A DNA stretch of 33,785 bases from a bacterium (lineage in GTDB: Bacteria > Lindowbacteria > 2-12-FULL-62-27). The stretch lies in contig JACQOF010000064.1 in assembly GCA_016202645.1 (NCBI GenBank), positions 1-33,785 on the forward strand. The letters are read 5' to 3'. Under the pieces are notes generated by a model that was not told the DNA's origin, ran no database searches, and worked only from the letters and a program-made list of their open reading frames with translations. Below, piece after piece: positions 13,362 through 18,563 of the stretch; within the stretch, counting starts at the first letter, position 1, and each line of letters begins with the position of its first letter. A program made the translations under genes and the position numbers.

Positions 13362-14726
13362 ATGAGACGGATTCCCGGCGAGGCGTCCAGGTTCCTCGCG
13401 CGAAAATTGCGGGCGGTCGAATGCCCCGAGGTGACATTTCTATCCGGGGAGTTTCCGGTATTCTGGCGGAAAGCGGCGGGGTCCCGGGTCTGGGATGTGG
13501 ACGGCAATCGATACATCGACATGACCGGGGCGTTCGCGGTGGCGAATCTCGGGCACGGCCATCCGGCCGTCCGGGCGGCGATGATCCGGCAGGCCCGGCG
13601 GATGGTTCACGGCATGGGCGACGTGCATCCGCCTGAGGGAAAAGCGCGCCTGCTCGAGGAATTGAACCGGATCCTTCCGCGCGCTCGCGGCGGATGGATG
13701 AGCATCCTCGGCCAGAACGGAAGCGACGCGGTGGAGGCGGCGATCAAGACCGTCCAAATCGCGCGGCCCGGAAGAGACGGGATCGTCGCGTTTACCGGGG
13801 CGTACCACGGTCTTTCCTACGGGGCGCTCTCGGTGACGTGGCGGCCGGATTTTCGGAAACCGTTCGCCGCGCGGATTTCCAAAAAGACGCTGTTTGCGCC
13901 GTATCCCTACTGCTACCGCTGTCCGCTGAAATTGAAATACCCGGACTGCGGCATCGCGTGCCTCGACGAAACCCGAAAAAAAATCCGGAAGGCGGGCGGG
14001 CCGCGAAAATTCGGAGCGGTGATCGTCGAGCCGATTCAGGGCCGCGGCGGCGAGGTCGTCCCGCCGCGTGGATGGCTGAGCCGGCTGGCCGATATCTGCC
14101 GCCGGGAGGGACTTCTGCTCATCGCCGACGAAATCTACACCGGATTCGGCCGCACCGGACGGATGTTCGCCTGCGACCATGAAGGCGTCGTGCCCGATCT
14201 CATGTGTCTGGGAAAAGGTCTCACCGGCGGGTTTCCGCTGTCGGTCTGCGCCGGGAAATCCGCCGTCATGCGCCGGTGGCCGCGCTCGGCCGGCGAGGCG
14301 GTCCACACCAGCACGTTCCTCGGCCACCCGGTCGGGTGCGCGATGGGCGTGGCGGCGCTGAAAATATACCGGACCGGCAAACCGGCGCGGCAGGCGCGCA
14401 TCATGGGCGCGTATTTCCTGGCCGCGCTTCGGCGGAAACTCGGGGACCTCGGCCCCGTCGGCGACATCCGGGGCAAGGGTCTCATGATCGGCGTGGAACT
14501 GGTGCGAAACCGGAAAACCAAACAGCCGCACCCGGCCCTCGCGGGAGGCGTGATGACGAGAGCGCTCCGGGAGGGCCTCATCCTTCTTTCCGGCGGAATC
14601 CACCAAAATGTCCTGTCGTTTTCCCCGCCGCTCTCCATCACCCGCCGCGAGATTGACTTTTGCGTCGACATCTTGGAAGATGCCCTCCAATTCGAGGGAG
14701 AAAGGCAAAAACATGTCATCGTTTGA
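13362..14726 (+). CDS. Class-III (GABA aminotransferase-type) PLP aminotransferase with a four-cysteine insert
   Basis: 454 residues, normal for fold-type I class-III transaminases that move an amino group between an aldehyde or ketone and an amino donor. Motifs: cofactor phosphate loop NGSDAVEAAIKT (119-130), GAYHG (146-150), Glu223 in VEPIQG, Asp256 in ADEIYTGFGRTG, and the Schiff-base Lys285 in LGKGLTGG. Residues 184-200 hold C-x2-C-x8-C-x3-C (YCYRCPL...YPDCGIAC). Such inserts are seen in a bacterial subfamily, and mammalian GABA aminotransferase binds a 2Fe-2S cluster through a CxxC, so metal binding is possible. It opens the plus-strand operon and overlaps the next gene by 14 bases. The substrate is not determinable from sequence; neighbours suggest an aldehyde made by LuxC. 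Confidence 0.93.
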   Translation: MRRIPGEASRFLARKLRAVECPEVTFLSGEFPVFWRKAAGSRVWDVDGNRYIDMTGAFAVANLGHGHPAVRAAMIRQARRMVHGMGDVHPPEGKARLLEELNRILPRARGGWMSILGQNGSDAVEAAIKTVQIARPGRDGIVAFTGAYHGLSYGALSVTWRPDFRKPFAARISKKTLFAPYPYCYRCPLKLKYPDCGIACLDETRKKIRKAGGPRKFGAVIVEPIQGRGGEVVPPRGWLSRLADICRREGLLLIADEIYTGFGRTGRMFACDHEGVVPDLMCLGKGLTGGFPLSVCAGKSAVMRRWPRSAGEAVHTSTFLGHPVGCAMGVAALKIYRTGKPARQARIMGAYFLAALRRKLGDLGPVGDIRGKGLMIGVELVRNRKTKQPHPALAGGVMTRALREGLILLSGGIHQNVLSFSPPLSITRREIDFCVDILEDALQFEGERQKHVIV

Positions 14727-15042
14727 GACGCTTCCCAACATTCACGGCATCAGCGAGGTGGCCCTGCGGGCGCCGTTTTCCGCCATCTGCAACGTGACGG
14801 AGGAACGGTTCGCGGGGGAGGTCATCGTGACGTACCGGCCCGGCGCCGCGCTGATTGAGTTTGTGTCCTTCGGCGAATACATCAAGGGCTACGACGAGGT
14901 CGAAACCACGGCGGAGGCGATGGCCCGCGAAGTGTTCGACGCCGTGAAGGAGACCGCCCAGCCGGTGGCGCTCCGGATCGAGATCGACGTCCAGTCGGCG
15001 TCCCACATTCCCGCGTGGTGCAAGATCGAAGAAGGTTACTGA
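14713..15042 (+). CDS. Short QueF-like T-fold protein
   Basis: 109 residues starting MSSFETLPNI at ATG 14713, preceded by GAGGGAGAAAGG. The block FSAICNVTEERFAGEVIVTY (22-41) followed by IEFVSFGEYI (48-57) aligns by eye with the QueF pattern (SLCPQTGQPDFATIYISY, then VESKSLKLYL). QueF reduces the nitrile preQ0 to the amine preQ1 in queuosine synthesis, using a Cys and an Asp. Here the Cys (Cys26) and the substrate-binding Glu (Glu49) are kept, but the TGQPDF block with the catalytic Asp is replaced by EERF. It is therefore a divergent tunnelling-fold relative, possibly with a different substrate. It overlaps the aminotransferase and is followed six bases later by luxE. No other queuosine gene is nearby. 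Confidence 0.65.
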   Translation: MSSFETLPNIHGISEVALRAPFSAICNVTEERFAGEVIVTYRPGAALIEFVSFGEYIKGYDEVETTAEAMAREVFDAVKETAQPVALRIEIDVQSASHIPAWCKIEEGY

Positions 15043-15048
15043 GGTCCA

Positions 15049-16194
15049 GTGGCGCAAAGCGGGGCCCGGATCGGCATCGATCAGAAGGTGCTGGATTTTA
15101 TTCACCACGCCGCGGAGGCGGATCCCGGCGAGGAAGCCTTCACCAAGCTCGCGCTCGACCTCTTCGCCTACCAGTACGAGCGTAATCCCGCATACCGTAT
15201 GTTCTGCATGAAGGACAGGGGAGCCGGACCCTCGACGCCAGACCGGATCCGTTCCTGGAAGGATATTCCGGCGGTCCCCGTTGGAGCGTTCCGGGCCGCG
15301 CCCTTCTGCGGATTCGCGCCGGACCGTGCAGTCCAGGTTTTTGAAACGTCCGGCACTACCGGCCGGGCGCCCGGCAGGCATTATTTCGATACCCTTGATC
15401 TCTACGACGAATCCGCTCTTCCGAATTTCAGCCGGTATCTTCTTCCCGACGACGCGCACCTGCCCATGCGGATGCTGATGCCGGCCCCCGCGGAAAATCC
15501 CAAGTCCAGTCTCTCCTACATGTGCCGCATCGTTGCGGAAGCGTTTGGCGAGGACGCCGAGTGGTTCGTCCGGGACGGCAAGATGGACGTTTCCGGAATT
15601 CTCGCGGATCTGGATCGTGCCGCGAAGGAAGACCGGCCGCGGATGATTCTGGGAACGGCGTTTGCTTTCGTGCACCTCATCGATGTGATGGCGGAAAAAG
15701 GCCTCCAGGTCCGACTGCCGGCGGGAAGCCGGATCATGGAGACCGGCGGATACAAAGGCCGCTCGCGGGAAATGACGGCCGATCAGCTCCACGCCCACAT
15801 CGAAACATTTCTCGGCGTGCCGCGCGCTTGGATTGTCAACGAGTACGGCATGACGGAACTTTCGTCGCAGATGTACGACGATACCCTCCGCCACGCTGTC
15901 CAATCGACCGCGGCACCCGCGGCCGACTCCGAGCGCCTCGTCCTGAAAATCCCGCCGCCGTGGGTGAAAATCCAGATCGCCGATCCCGTAAGCCTCGAAC
16001 CGGCCCCATACGGAACGCCGGGCATCGTCCGAATCTGGGACCTGGCCAACCGGGGTTCGGCCGTCGCGGTGCAGACCGGAGACCTCGGCATCGCCGCCGC
16101 GGCCGGATTTCAGGTCCTGGGCCGGAACGCGGGCGCGGACATGCGGGGCTGTTCACTGCAGGCGGAAGATATGACCTCCCCGTCCATTCCATAA
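15049..16194 (+). CDS. luxE: LuxE-type acyl-protein synthetase
   Basis: 381 residues, close to luminous-bacterial LuxE. LuxE adenylates a carboxylic (fatty) acid and passes the acyl group to its own cysteine and then to LuxC. Visible features: AMP-binding loop FETSGTTGRAPG at 98-109, NEYGMTELSSQMYD at 264-277, ETGGYKGRSREM at 231-242, and near the C-terminus GRNAGADMRGCSL with Cys368, matching the position of the acyl-accepting cysteine of LuxE. GTG 15049 follows the upstream stop by six bases, with GAGG overlapping that stop. No luxA, luxB or luxD is present, so light production is not indicated; the pair with LuxC is the common non-luminous type. Confidence 0.88.
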   Translation: MAQSGARIGIDQKVLDFIHHAAEADPGEEAFTKLALDLFAYQYERNPAYRMFCMKDRGAGPSTPDRIRSWKDIPAVPVGAFRAAPFCGFAPDRAVQVFETSGTTGRAPGRHYFDTLDLYDESALPNFSRYLLPDDAHLPMRMLMPAPAENPKSSLSYMCRIVAEAFGEDAEWFVRDGKMDVSGILADLDRAAKEDRPRMILGTAFAFVHLIDVMAEKGLQVRLPAGSRIMETGGYKGRSREMTADQLHAHIETFLGVPRAWIVNEYGMTELSSQMYDDTLRHAVQSTAAPAADSERLVLKIPPPWVKIQIADPVSLEPAPYGTPGIVRIWDLANRGSAVAVQTGDLGIAAAAGFQVLGRNAGADMRGCSLQAEDMTSPSIP

Positions 16195-16244
16195 TCATCG
16201 AACCGTTCGGCAAGCATTTAAAACAGGTTCCGGTTCGGCGGATC

Positions 16245-17402
16245 ATGGCCGCGCTGGAATCCGCCGCGAAAATCTTTTTGGACCGGTCTAGCCCGCAGCG
16301 CGCGGATACCATCGACGCGATGGCCGCCGAGAACAATTTTTCGCGGCCGATGATCGAGCGCGCGATCGACTGGACGTTTGGGGAAATCACCGTGAACGCC
16401 ATGCGGCGGCTTTTGATTTCGGAACTGGACGGCGACGACACGCCGAGCGATCCGGCGTTTGGGTCGCCGCGTCTCACGGCCGTCATCGCCGCCGGAGCGA
16501 TTTTTCAGCCGGCCGTCAATTGCGTTGTCCATGCGCTCCTCGTCAAATCCCCGGTCTTTGTCAAATGCTCAAGCCACGACCGCGTGTTGCTCCCCGCGTT
16601 CCTCAAAGTCCTGGCGCGGATCGATCCCGAAGTCGGCGGAGCCGCTCGCGCGGAATCATGGCCGGGCGCGACAGATCCGCGGACGGCGGAACTTCTCTCC
16701 GCGGCCGGCGCGGTGATCGCCTTCGGGACCGATGAGACCATCGCGGCCATCCGGCCGGTGGTGCCGGAAGGAACACCGCTGATCGCGCAGGGCCACAAGA
16801 TCAGTCTGGCGTGCGTCGGCGCGGGCGCGCTCAAAAATCGGGAAACAGCGGCAGCCGCGGCCGCAGCCCTGGCGTTGGACACCGCGATGTACGACCAGAC
16901 CGGGTGTCTTTCCCCGCACGCCGTGTACGTCGAATCGGGAGCGCCCGTCGACGCCGATGGATTCTCGGTACTCCTGGCGCATGAACTCGGACAAATCGCG
17001 AAGACACTCCCGCCCGGACCCATCGCAAACCAAACGGCCGCCGACGTTCAGGCGTATCGCGGAAACGCGGACTTCCGATCCTGCTCGAATCCCAACGTCC
17101 GGTGCCTTTTCGGTGACCGCCTGGACTATACAGTCATTCTGGATGACGAACCGGTGATGCACTTGTCGCCGCTCGGCCGGACCATCGCCGTCCATCCGAT
17201 CGGTGACATCCGTCGTCTGCCGGAACATCTGGCGCCTTTTCACGGCAAACTGCAGGCCGTCGGTGCGGCGCCGGACGAGCCCATCCTTCACGCCATCCAT
17301 GCCGACCTTCAGAATATGGGCGCAAGTTACTTCTGCCCCCTCGGCCGGATGCAGCGCCCGCCCCTCAACTGGAAAAACACAAAACTTTTCCTCAGAGGTT
17401 GA
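16245..17402 (+). CDS. luxC: LuxC-type acyl-CoA/acyl-enzyme reductase
   Basis: 385 residues from ATG 16245. LuxC reduces an activated acyl group with NADPH to the aldehyde. Family blocks include VIAAGAIFQPAVNCVVHALL (80-99), KSPVFVKCSSHD (101-112), AGAVIAFGTDETI (154-166), QGHKISLACVG (182-192) and the catalytic Cys221 in YDQTGCLSPHAVYVE. The start is uncertain: the same frame reads IIIEPFGKHLKQVPVRRI directly before this ATG and looks coding back to the end of luxE, but there is no ATG, GTG or TTG there, only ATA 16191, the ATCs at 16194 and 16197, or CTG 16149. The protein works with LuxE as the fatty acid reductase core. Confidence 0.88.
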   Translation: MAALESAAKIFLDRSSPQRADTIDAMAAENNFSRPMIERAIDWTFGEITVNAMRRLLISELDGDDTPSDPAFGSPRLTAVIAAGAIFQPAVNCVVHALLVKSPVFVKCSSHDRVLLPAFLKVLARIDPEVGGAARAESWPGATDPRTAELLSAAGAVIAFGTDETIAAIRPVVPEGTPLIAQGHKISLACVGAGALKNRETAAAAAAALALDTAMYDQTGCLSPHAVYVESGAPVDADGFSVLLAHELGQIAKTLPPGPIANQTAADVQAYRGNADFRSCSNPNVRCLFGDRLDYTVILDDEPVMHLSPLGRTIAVHPIGDIRRLPEHLAPFHGKLQAVGAAPDEPILHAIHADLQNMGASYFCPLGRMQRPPLNWKNTKLFLRG

Positions 17403-17458: not shown

Positions 17459-18343
17459 ATGTCCATGACCCACGCGGAGAAAATTCGTGAGATTCTAACG
17501 CGGGGCGGCCGGTCGGCGGCCCTCCTCATGCCCGGCGTGTTTGACGCCCTCACCGCGCGGCTCGCCGTGCAGGCCGGCTTCGAGGTGATCTTCACGTCCG
17601 GCTACAGCGTCTCGGCCGCGCGGCTCGCGGCGCCCGATTTCGGGGTCCTCACCGCCACGGAGATGATCGACACGGCGCGGCGGGTGTGTCTTGCGGAACC
17701 CGAAACGCCTCTCATCGTCGACGCCGATACCGGATACGGCAACGCCATCAACGTCATCCAGACGGTGAAGGAACTTCAGCGGGCGGGCGCCGCCGGGATG
17801 TTTCTCGAGGACCAGGTCTGGCCGAAAAAATGCGGGCACATGTCGGGCAAGGTCGTCATCCCTCTGGAGGAATACGAATCGAAACTCCAGGCCGCCATCG
17901 ACACCCGTGGCGACCGCGACTTTTTCATCGTCGCCCGGACCGACGCCCGCGCGCCGCTCGGGCTCAAGGAGGCGATCCGCCGCGCGAAACGCTCGCACGA
18001 GATGGGCGCTGACGCGACTTTCATCGAAGCCCCGCAGTCGATCGATGAAATGCGGGAGATCGCCCGCGAAGTCCCCGGGGTGCGGGTCGCGAACATGCTG
18101 GAAAAGGGAAAGACTCCGCTCCAGACCCCGCAGGAACTCCACGACATCGGATTCGACCTCATCGTCCACCCCCTGACCGCCCTTTACGCCGCGGCGCGCG
18201 CGTACTCGGACGTCTTCCGGATCCTGAAGAAAAAAGGCACCACCCGCGAGGACCTTCACCTGCTCCTGCCCTGGGCAGACTTCCACGGGATCGTGGACTT
18301 GGAGGGGTATTACGAGCTCGAAAAAAAGTATCGAGAACGCTGA
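17459..18343 (+). CDS. Isocitrate lyase/PEP mutase superfamily protein (methylisocitrate lyase-like)
   Basis: 294 residues of TIM-barrel type. Landmarks: LLMPGVFDALTARLA (22-36), SGYSVSA (47-53), metal-binding acids in VDADTGYGN (87-95), FLEDQVWPKKCGHMSG (115-130) with the lyase signature KKCGH at 123-127, and IVARTDA. The catalytic cysteine of KKCGH favours C-C bond lyase or related activity (2-methylisocitrate lyase, dimethylmalate lyase) over a PEP mutase, but members include oxaloacetate decarboxylases and carboxyPEP mutases, so the substrate is open. It has its own promoter candidate and may start at ATG 17459 or at ATG 17465. It is 56 bases after luxC; whether it shares that pathway is unknown. 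Confidence 0.85.
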   Translation: MSMTHAEKIREILTRGGRSAALLMPGVFDALTARLAVQAGFEVIFTSGYSVSAARLAAPDFGVLTATEMIDTARRVCLAEPETPLIVDADTGYGNAINVIQTVKELQRAGAAGMFLEDQVWPKKCGHMSGKVVIPLEEYESKLQAAIDTRGDRDFFIVARTDARAPLGLKEAIRRAKRSHEMGADATFIEAPQSIDEMREIAREVPGVRVANMLEKGKTPLQTPQELHDIGFDLIVHPLTALYAAARAYSDVFRILKKKGTTREDLHLLLPWADFHGIVDLEGYYELEKKYRER

Positions 18344-18357
18344 CGTTTGGAGTCGGT

Positions 18358-18563
18358 GCAATGGGCAATGAACAATGAGCAATGAACAATGCGCAACAAA
18401 TTCTGAATTCATTGGTAACTATTCAGGTTGTCATTCCCGCGAAAGCGGGAATCCAGATTATCGCAGGGCGGACTGGATTCCCGCTTTCGCGGGAATGACG
18501 GAGAGGGCTGAATAGTAACATTCATTGTTAATTGCTCATTGCGTGTTGTTCATTGTCCATTGA
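18358..18563. repeat. Nested dRS3-like inverted-repeat element (about 206 bases)
   Basis: Three nested dyads. The innermost is a perfect 27-base inverted pair (18430-18456 and 18473-18499), each arm itself containing ATTCCCGCGAAAGCGGGAAT, which fits the Neisseria dRS3 consensus ATTCCC-N8-GGGAAT. The next is GTAACTATTCAG (18415-18426) against CTGAATAGTAAC (18508-18519), 11 of 12 matched. The outermost pairs iterated words CAATGAACAATGAGCAATGA (from 18358) with their reverse complement ending at 18563 (CAATGGrCAATGAACAA shared). The loop is 16 bases. It contains no gene and looks like a MITE- or REP-type element. Together with the promoter at 18578-18606 it accounts for the 295-base gap between 18344 and 18638. 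Confidence 0.85.

Follow-up and report, generated by a model that had tools for sequence, protein, structure and literature searches.

A stretch of bacterial DNA of 33,785 nucleotides (hereafter the window) contains four tightly packed genes on the plus strand for a class-III PLP aminotransferase (AT), a QueF-like T-fold protein, a LuxE-like synthetase and a LuxC-like reductase. We propose that the AT, LuxE and LuxC proteins quite likely replace QueC and QueF in the synthesis of preQ1, from which the tRNA modification queuosine is built, and convert 7-carboxy-7-deazaguanine (CDG) to preQ1 with an acyl-enzyme and then an aldehyde as intermediates. Such a QueC/QueF-independent route is likely to operate in at least 13 bacterial families, with a version in Lindowbacteria that has recruited the QueF-like T-fold protein. 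The proposal draws on the gene families and their catalytic residues, on the linkage of these genes across families, on operons that include QueD and QueE, and on the absence of QueC and QueF, among the matches listed, in genomes that carry QueA.

The AT gene (13362..14726; PF00202, 333 bits) overlaps by 14 bp the gene of a 109-residue T-fold protein of the QueF/QueF-L type (14713..15042), whose match to PF14489 is weak (29.3 bits; cut-off 27.3). The gene of the LuxE-like adenylate-forming acyl-enzyme synthetase, with a GTG start, follows at 15049..16194 (PF04443, 55 bits), and that of the LuxC-like acyl reductase at 16197..17402 (PF05893, 152 bits), all on the plus strand. These coordinates and Pfam matches agree with an earlier, sequence-only reading of this DNA, which had described four overlapping or nearly touching plus-strand genes. 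No luciferase family was matched among the genes of the block and the nearby genes scanned. The start codon of the LuxC gene is uncertain because no in-frame ATG, GTG or TTG occurs from the LuxE stop to the ATG at 16245, yet a segment kept in the LuxC proteins of the relatives (LRQVPVRR) lies 5' of that ATG. Window positions 16191-16245 encode the conserved N-terminus of LuxC without a standard start codon, and ATA and ATC codons overlap the LuxE stop.

The genome that contains the window comprises 2.9 Mb and is 82% complete. The collection has two other members of the family, both with the QueF-like gene on contigs titled Candidatus Lindowbacteria, and the source of the window is a relative of Candidatus Lindowbacteria. 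The order AT-QueF-like-LuxE-LuxC is the same in both of these relatives (2/2; L009 and L010), where the four families adjoin. Identities to the L009 and L010 proteins are 76-77% for the QueF-like protein, 66-67% for AT, 54-55% for LuxE and 47-48% for LuxC. Because order and content are kept in L009 and L010, and because AT-LuxE(-LuxC) recurs in unrelated families, the four-gene block is more than a chance arrangement.

The AT belongs to the class-III PLP fold by its PF00202 match, and the PLP lysine is K285 in a GK motif. Its scores are under every NCBIfam cut-off shown for GABA, ornithine and acetylornithine aminotransferases. A profile built from 11 cassette ATs separates the members (425-689 bits) from the next class-III ATs (410 bits or less) by a sharp gap, which matches changes in the active site. 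Members of the subfamily display a YHGL motif (one YHGV, one YHGT) in contrast to HGR in GABA/ornithine-type enzymes, and GRGG or GRxG (one ARGG) in contrast to a predominant GEGG. They have no arginine before the PPL motif, the position of GabT R398, where the GABA/ornithine-type enzymes have arginine with one exception. At the positions of GabT R141, R398 and E211, the window AT has leucine, a residue other than arginine, and arginine, respectively. All 14 genomes with an AT member of at least 500 bits are LuxE-positive, versus 25 of the 386 overall (hypergeometric p 3e-19), and the value with Lindowbacteria left out is 1e-15. The score gap, the active-site changes and the association with LuxE argue that the AT, judged by its residues and scores, forms a sharp subfamily of its own and is not a conserved GABA, ornithine or acetylornithine enzyme, an identity that would have spoken against the sequence-only reading.

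LuxE contains the adenylate-forming motifs of its family together with the acyl-accepting C-terminal cysteine; the SGT, ETGG and EYGM motifs and this cysteine, in a C-terminal GC, are conserved across 13 aligned cassette LuxE proteins. The catalytic cysteine of LuxC, located in a GC(L/M/V)S motif (GCLSP context), is invariant in 8 of 8 aligned cassette LuxC proteins. The cassette thus shares with the Lux fatty-acid reductase the Pfam families, the adenylation motifs, the acyl-accepting cysteine of LuxE and the catalytic cysteine of LuxC. It differs in that both proteins score far under the NCBIfam equivalog cut-offs (47 versus 550 and 47 versus 750 bits), in that no luciferase is seen in the block, and in its link to an aminotransferase and to QueD and QueE.

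The core of AT, LuxE-like ligase and LuxC-like reductase was found in bacteria of 12 other families, in which LuxE and LuxC are sometimes fused, as in L084 (a single reading frame of 878 residues) and in the similarly arranged L147. A class-III AT with 38-47% identity to the window AT adjoins LuxE at eight loci outside Lindowbacteria, mostly with LuxC; further AT-LuxE cassette loci are L147, L149, L151 and L154. A search of plasmids with the L084 AT found nothing at E 1e-60. Plasmids of Azospirillum and Pantoea encode LuxE-LuxC relatives with SDR genes and without an AT, accompanied in Azospirillum by ABC-transporter genes as well, and these pairs probably belong to another pathway. Phages and viral contigs contained no LuxE and one partial QueE-AT contig (L200; IMGVR_UViG_3300016741_000537, 1-1133), on which the C-terminus of QueE ends 12 bp before a truncated AT of the subfamily. 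A phage large terminase gene on the opposite strand adjoins the QueE-AT pair of this contig.

The recurrent neighbours of the cassette are QueD and QueE. Genome G127 (locus L151) has an operon of five overlapping genes in the order AT-LuxE-LuxC-QueD-QueE. QueE is found a few bp upstream of AT in G174 and about 40 bp upstream of it in G386, followed in both by LuxE-LuxC (loci L084 and L147), and the QueE of L084 scores above the NCBIfam cut-off.

A five-part profile (QueC, QueF, QueA, QueD and QueE) was run over 72 genomes, including 17 cassette genomes and 45 genomes of a systematic background. Neither QueC nor QueF was found in the 17 cassette genomes among the matches listed, which reach E 1.8e-22, a level that very divergent QueC or QueF could escape; every QueC or QueF match in the background has an E-value of 5e-30 or better. 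QueA is present in 16 of the 17 cassette genomes. Among QueA-positive genomes, QueC or QueF occurs in 0 of 16 with the cassette versus 29 of 37 in the background (Fisher p 5e-8), and the same test by family gives 0 of 13 versus 28 of 35 (p 4e-7). Eight of the 37 QueA-positive background genomes have neither QueC, QueF nor the cassette. A second profile likewise gave no QueF in the cassette genomes. Salvage of preQ1 alone does not explain this pattern, because at least 12 of the 17 cassette genomes encode QueD and/or QueE, and NCBIfam confirmed several of these assignments. No preQ1 riboswitch was detected at the gathering threshold in the cassette neighbourhoods.

Two further groups of genomes were observed. 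In G014, G301 and G162 (loci L011, L076 and L080), which represent three genera of one family, LuxE directly adjoins a class-I aminotransferase, and neither QueC nor QueF is among the matches listed; they possibly use the same preQ1 route with another aminotransferase. The genomes G063, G204 and G334 (L090, L088 and L089) are positive for LuxE, QueA and QueE and lack the AT subfamily, with no QueC or QueF among the matches listed.

In Lindowbacteria, Tgt is encoded in all three genomes, with QueA beside or near it in two. Two of these genomes encode QueE away from the cassette; no QueD was located in this group. The Lindowbacteria QueC homologue matches PF06508 with 75-88 bits, reaches 51-65 bits versus an NCBIfam cut-off of 150, and lacks the SGYPDCR motif. 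A C-terminal cysteine cluster is kept in the QueC-like proteins of L105 (8728-9402, minus strand) and L106 (797-1486, plus strand).

The conversion of acids to thioesters, aldehydes and amines is chemistry typical of the enzyme families in the cassette. The QueE product CDG is a carboxylic acid, and preQ1 is the corresponding aminomethyl compound (PMC11130926, PMC6593275). CDG and preQ1 are proposed as substrate and product because of the linkage to QueD and QueE and the absence of QueC and QueF. The substrate, the order of the steps, each catalytic step and the amino donor of the following route are predicted, as is the role assigned below to the T-fold protein. CDG, made by QueD and QueE, would be adenylated at its carboxylate by LuxE and held as an acyl-enzyme on the C-terminal cysteine of LuxE. 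The acyl group would then move to the LuxC cysteine, where reduction with NAD(P)H is predicted to yield 7-formyl-7-deazaguanine. The AT would act as a 7-formyl-7-deazaguanine aminotransferase that forms the aminomethyl base preQ1, for subsequent use by Tgt and QueA. The sequence-only reading had the chemistry right in outline, namely one unit that leads from acid through aldehyde to amine with an AT other than a GABA enzyme; the fatty-acid or lipid substrate it suggested is not favoured by the QueD/QueE linkage and the QueC/QueF absence.

In the textbook route to preQ1, CDG is converted by QueC via the amide into the nitrile preQ0, which is then reduced with NADPH by QueF. The cassette route is predicted to begin with the same compound, the CDG supplied by QueE, and to finish with the same one, preQ1 for use by Tgt and QueA. 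By contrast, the cassette would proceed by an acyl-enzyme, an aldehyde and a transamination, without a nitrile, QueC or QueF. In the literature consulted, mainly open-access, we found no link between LuxE or LuxC and queuosine, no 7-formyl-7-deazaguanine and no description of such a route, and its novelty is provisional. In genome surveys, QueC and QueF are among the genes whose presence decides whether a bacterium is counted as a maker or a scavenger of queuosine (PMC11130926, PMC6593275). If the proposal is true, many genomes with QueD, QueE and QueA but neither QueC nor QueF would be reclassified. It would also provide a function for LuxE/LuxC pairs of non-luminous bacteria, and enzymes for the conversion of an aromatic heterocyclic acid to an amine.

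The classical substrates of LuxE and LuxC are fatty acids, from which the cassette could accordingly build long-chain amines or a lipid that bears an amine. Acid-to-amine cassettes of this logic are known from tambjamine synthesis, in which PtTamA/PtTamH turn fatty acids into amines (PMC9594044). Like the cassette, TamA/TamH (PMC9594044) and PigE of prodigiosin synthesis combine thioester activation, an aldehyde and a class-III aminotransferase to produce a primary amine. However, their substrate is fatty-acyl and ACP-tethered, the thioester reductase is fused to the aminotransferase, and they are not LuxE/LuxC systems. We consider a fatty-acid substrate unlikely: genes for fatty-acid synthesis or lipids do not recur next to the cassette, where the recurrent genes are QueD and QueE, and the cassette genomes are without QueC and QueF among the matches listed. 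QueC and QueF are, by contrast, present in G119 and G310, which are LuxE-positive outside the AT subfamily and have LuxE in other settings.

The QueF-like T-fold protein was further analyzed by alignment and modeling. The catalytic Cys26 and the substrate-binding Glu68 are invariant in an alignment of 24 sequences. The catalytic aspartate of the QueF motif CPxTGxPD is replaced by phenylalanine, also in L009 and L010, the NADPH motif E(S/L)K(S/A)xK (ELKSLK) is replaced by EFVSFG, and the RGG motif is missing. The AF2 model obtained from the 24-sequence alignment has a pLDDT of 94; this alignment was needed, as one of three sequences gave a poor model (pLDDT 50). The closest solved fold is that of the archaeosine synthase QueF-L (5jyx; Z 17.5, rmsd 1.2, 103 residues), followed by QueF (4f8b; Z 16.1) and GTP cyclohydrolase I (Z 15.9). 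QueF-L, which is of equal length, is the best match both by profile and by fold. The T-fold, the thioimide cysteine and the purine-binding glutamate are shared by the QueF-like protein, QueF-L and QueF. Unlike QueF-L and QueF, the QueF-like protein lacks the catalytic aspartate, the histidine and the NADPH motif and is located inside an AT-LuxE-LuxC cassette; the residues aligned to the active-site aspartate and histidine of QueF-L are neither Asp nor His. By model and alignment, it is a T-fold protein of the purine-binding type and, by the defining residues, not a QueF. The sequence-only reading had pointed to a family known for nitrile reduction; the protein is not a nitrile reductase as such because the catalytic aspartate and the NADPH motif are lost.

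The resemblance to QueF-L, together with the QueD/QueE linkage, is consistent with a cassette whose product is some other derivative of 7-deazaguanine, be it a different base of tRNA or DNA or a secondary metabolite, formed by means of a QueF-L-like T-fold protein, while preQ1 is salvaged separately, as is common in bacteria (PMC11130926, PMC6593275). Such a product is improbable, since QueF is missing among the matches listed for the cassette genomes and QueA is present, which makes preQ1 the simplest product. Moreover, no tailoring or DNA-modification genes recur beside the cassette, and the T-fold protein is missing in other lineages and is without the QueF-L aspartate and histidine. It is very improbable that the QueF-like protein, as the sole PF14489 protein in all three Lindowbacteria genomes and with the cysteine, the glutamate and the fold retained, reduces preQ0 supplied by the divergent QueC homologue for the Tgt and QueA present there, with AT, LuxE and LuxC unrelated, since the catalytic aspartate, the NADPH motif and the RGG motif are all lost, the gene lies inside a cassette that functions elsewhere without it, and the other 12 families would be left unexplained.

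A scan of 84,980 species with two strict peptide patterns detected the QueF-like protein only in the other two Lindowbacteria, and a profile applied to 386 diverse genomes revealed, beyond Lindowbacteria, only canonical-looking QueF proteins. On these searches the protein is a Lindowbacteria-only accessory, an add-on rather than part of the cassette core to which it had first been assigned. Within the proposed preQ1 route it may, tentatively, bind or hold a 7-deazaguanine intermediate in Lindowbacteria via Glu68 and Cys26.

Downstream of LuxC lies a gene for a lyase of the methylisocitrate-lyase/PEP-mutase family (17459..18343, plus strand; PF13714/TIGR02317, under the equivalog cut-off), which carries a KKCGH motif. 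The lyase occupies the same position next to the cassette in L009, the two copies being 78% identical. This PrpB-like lyase was ruled out as a fifth cassette member, as it is missing in L010 and never directly adjoins the cassettes of other families; the gene is probably outside the cassette. Directly after it, a near-perfect inverted repeat was read by eye at window positions 18430-18500 (gtcattcccgcgaaagcgggaatccag ... ctggattcccgctttcgcgggaatgac); it resembles a small palindromic element of the mobile kind.
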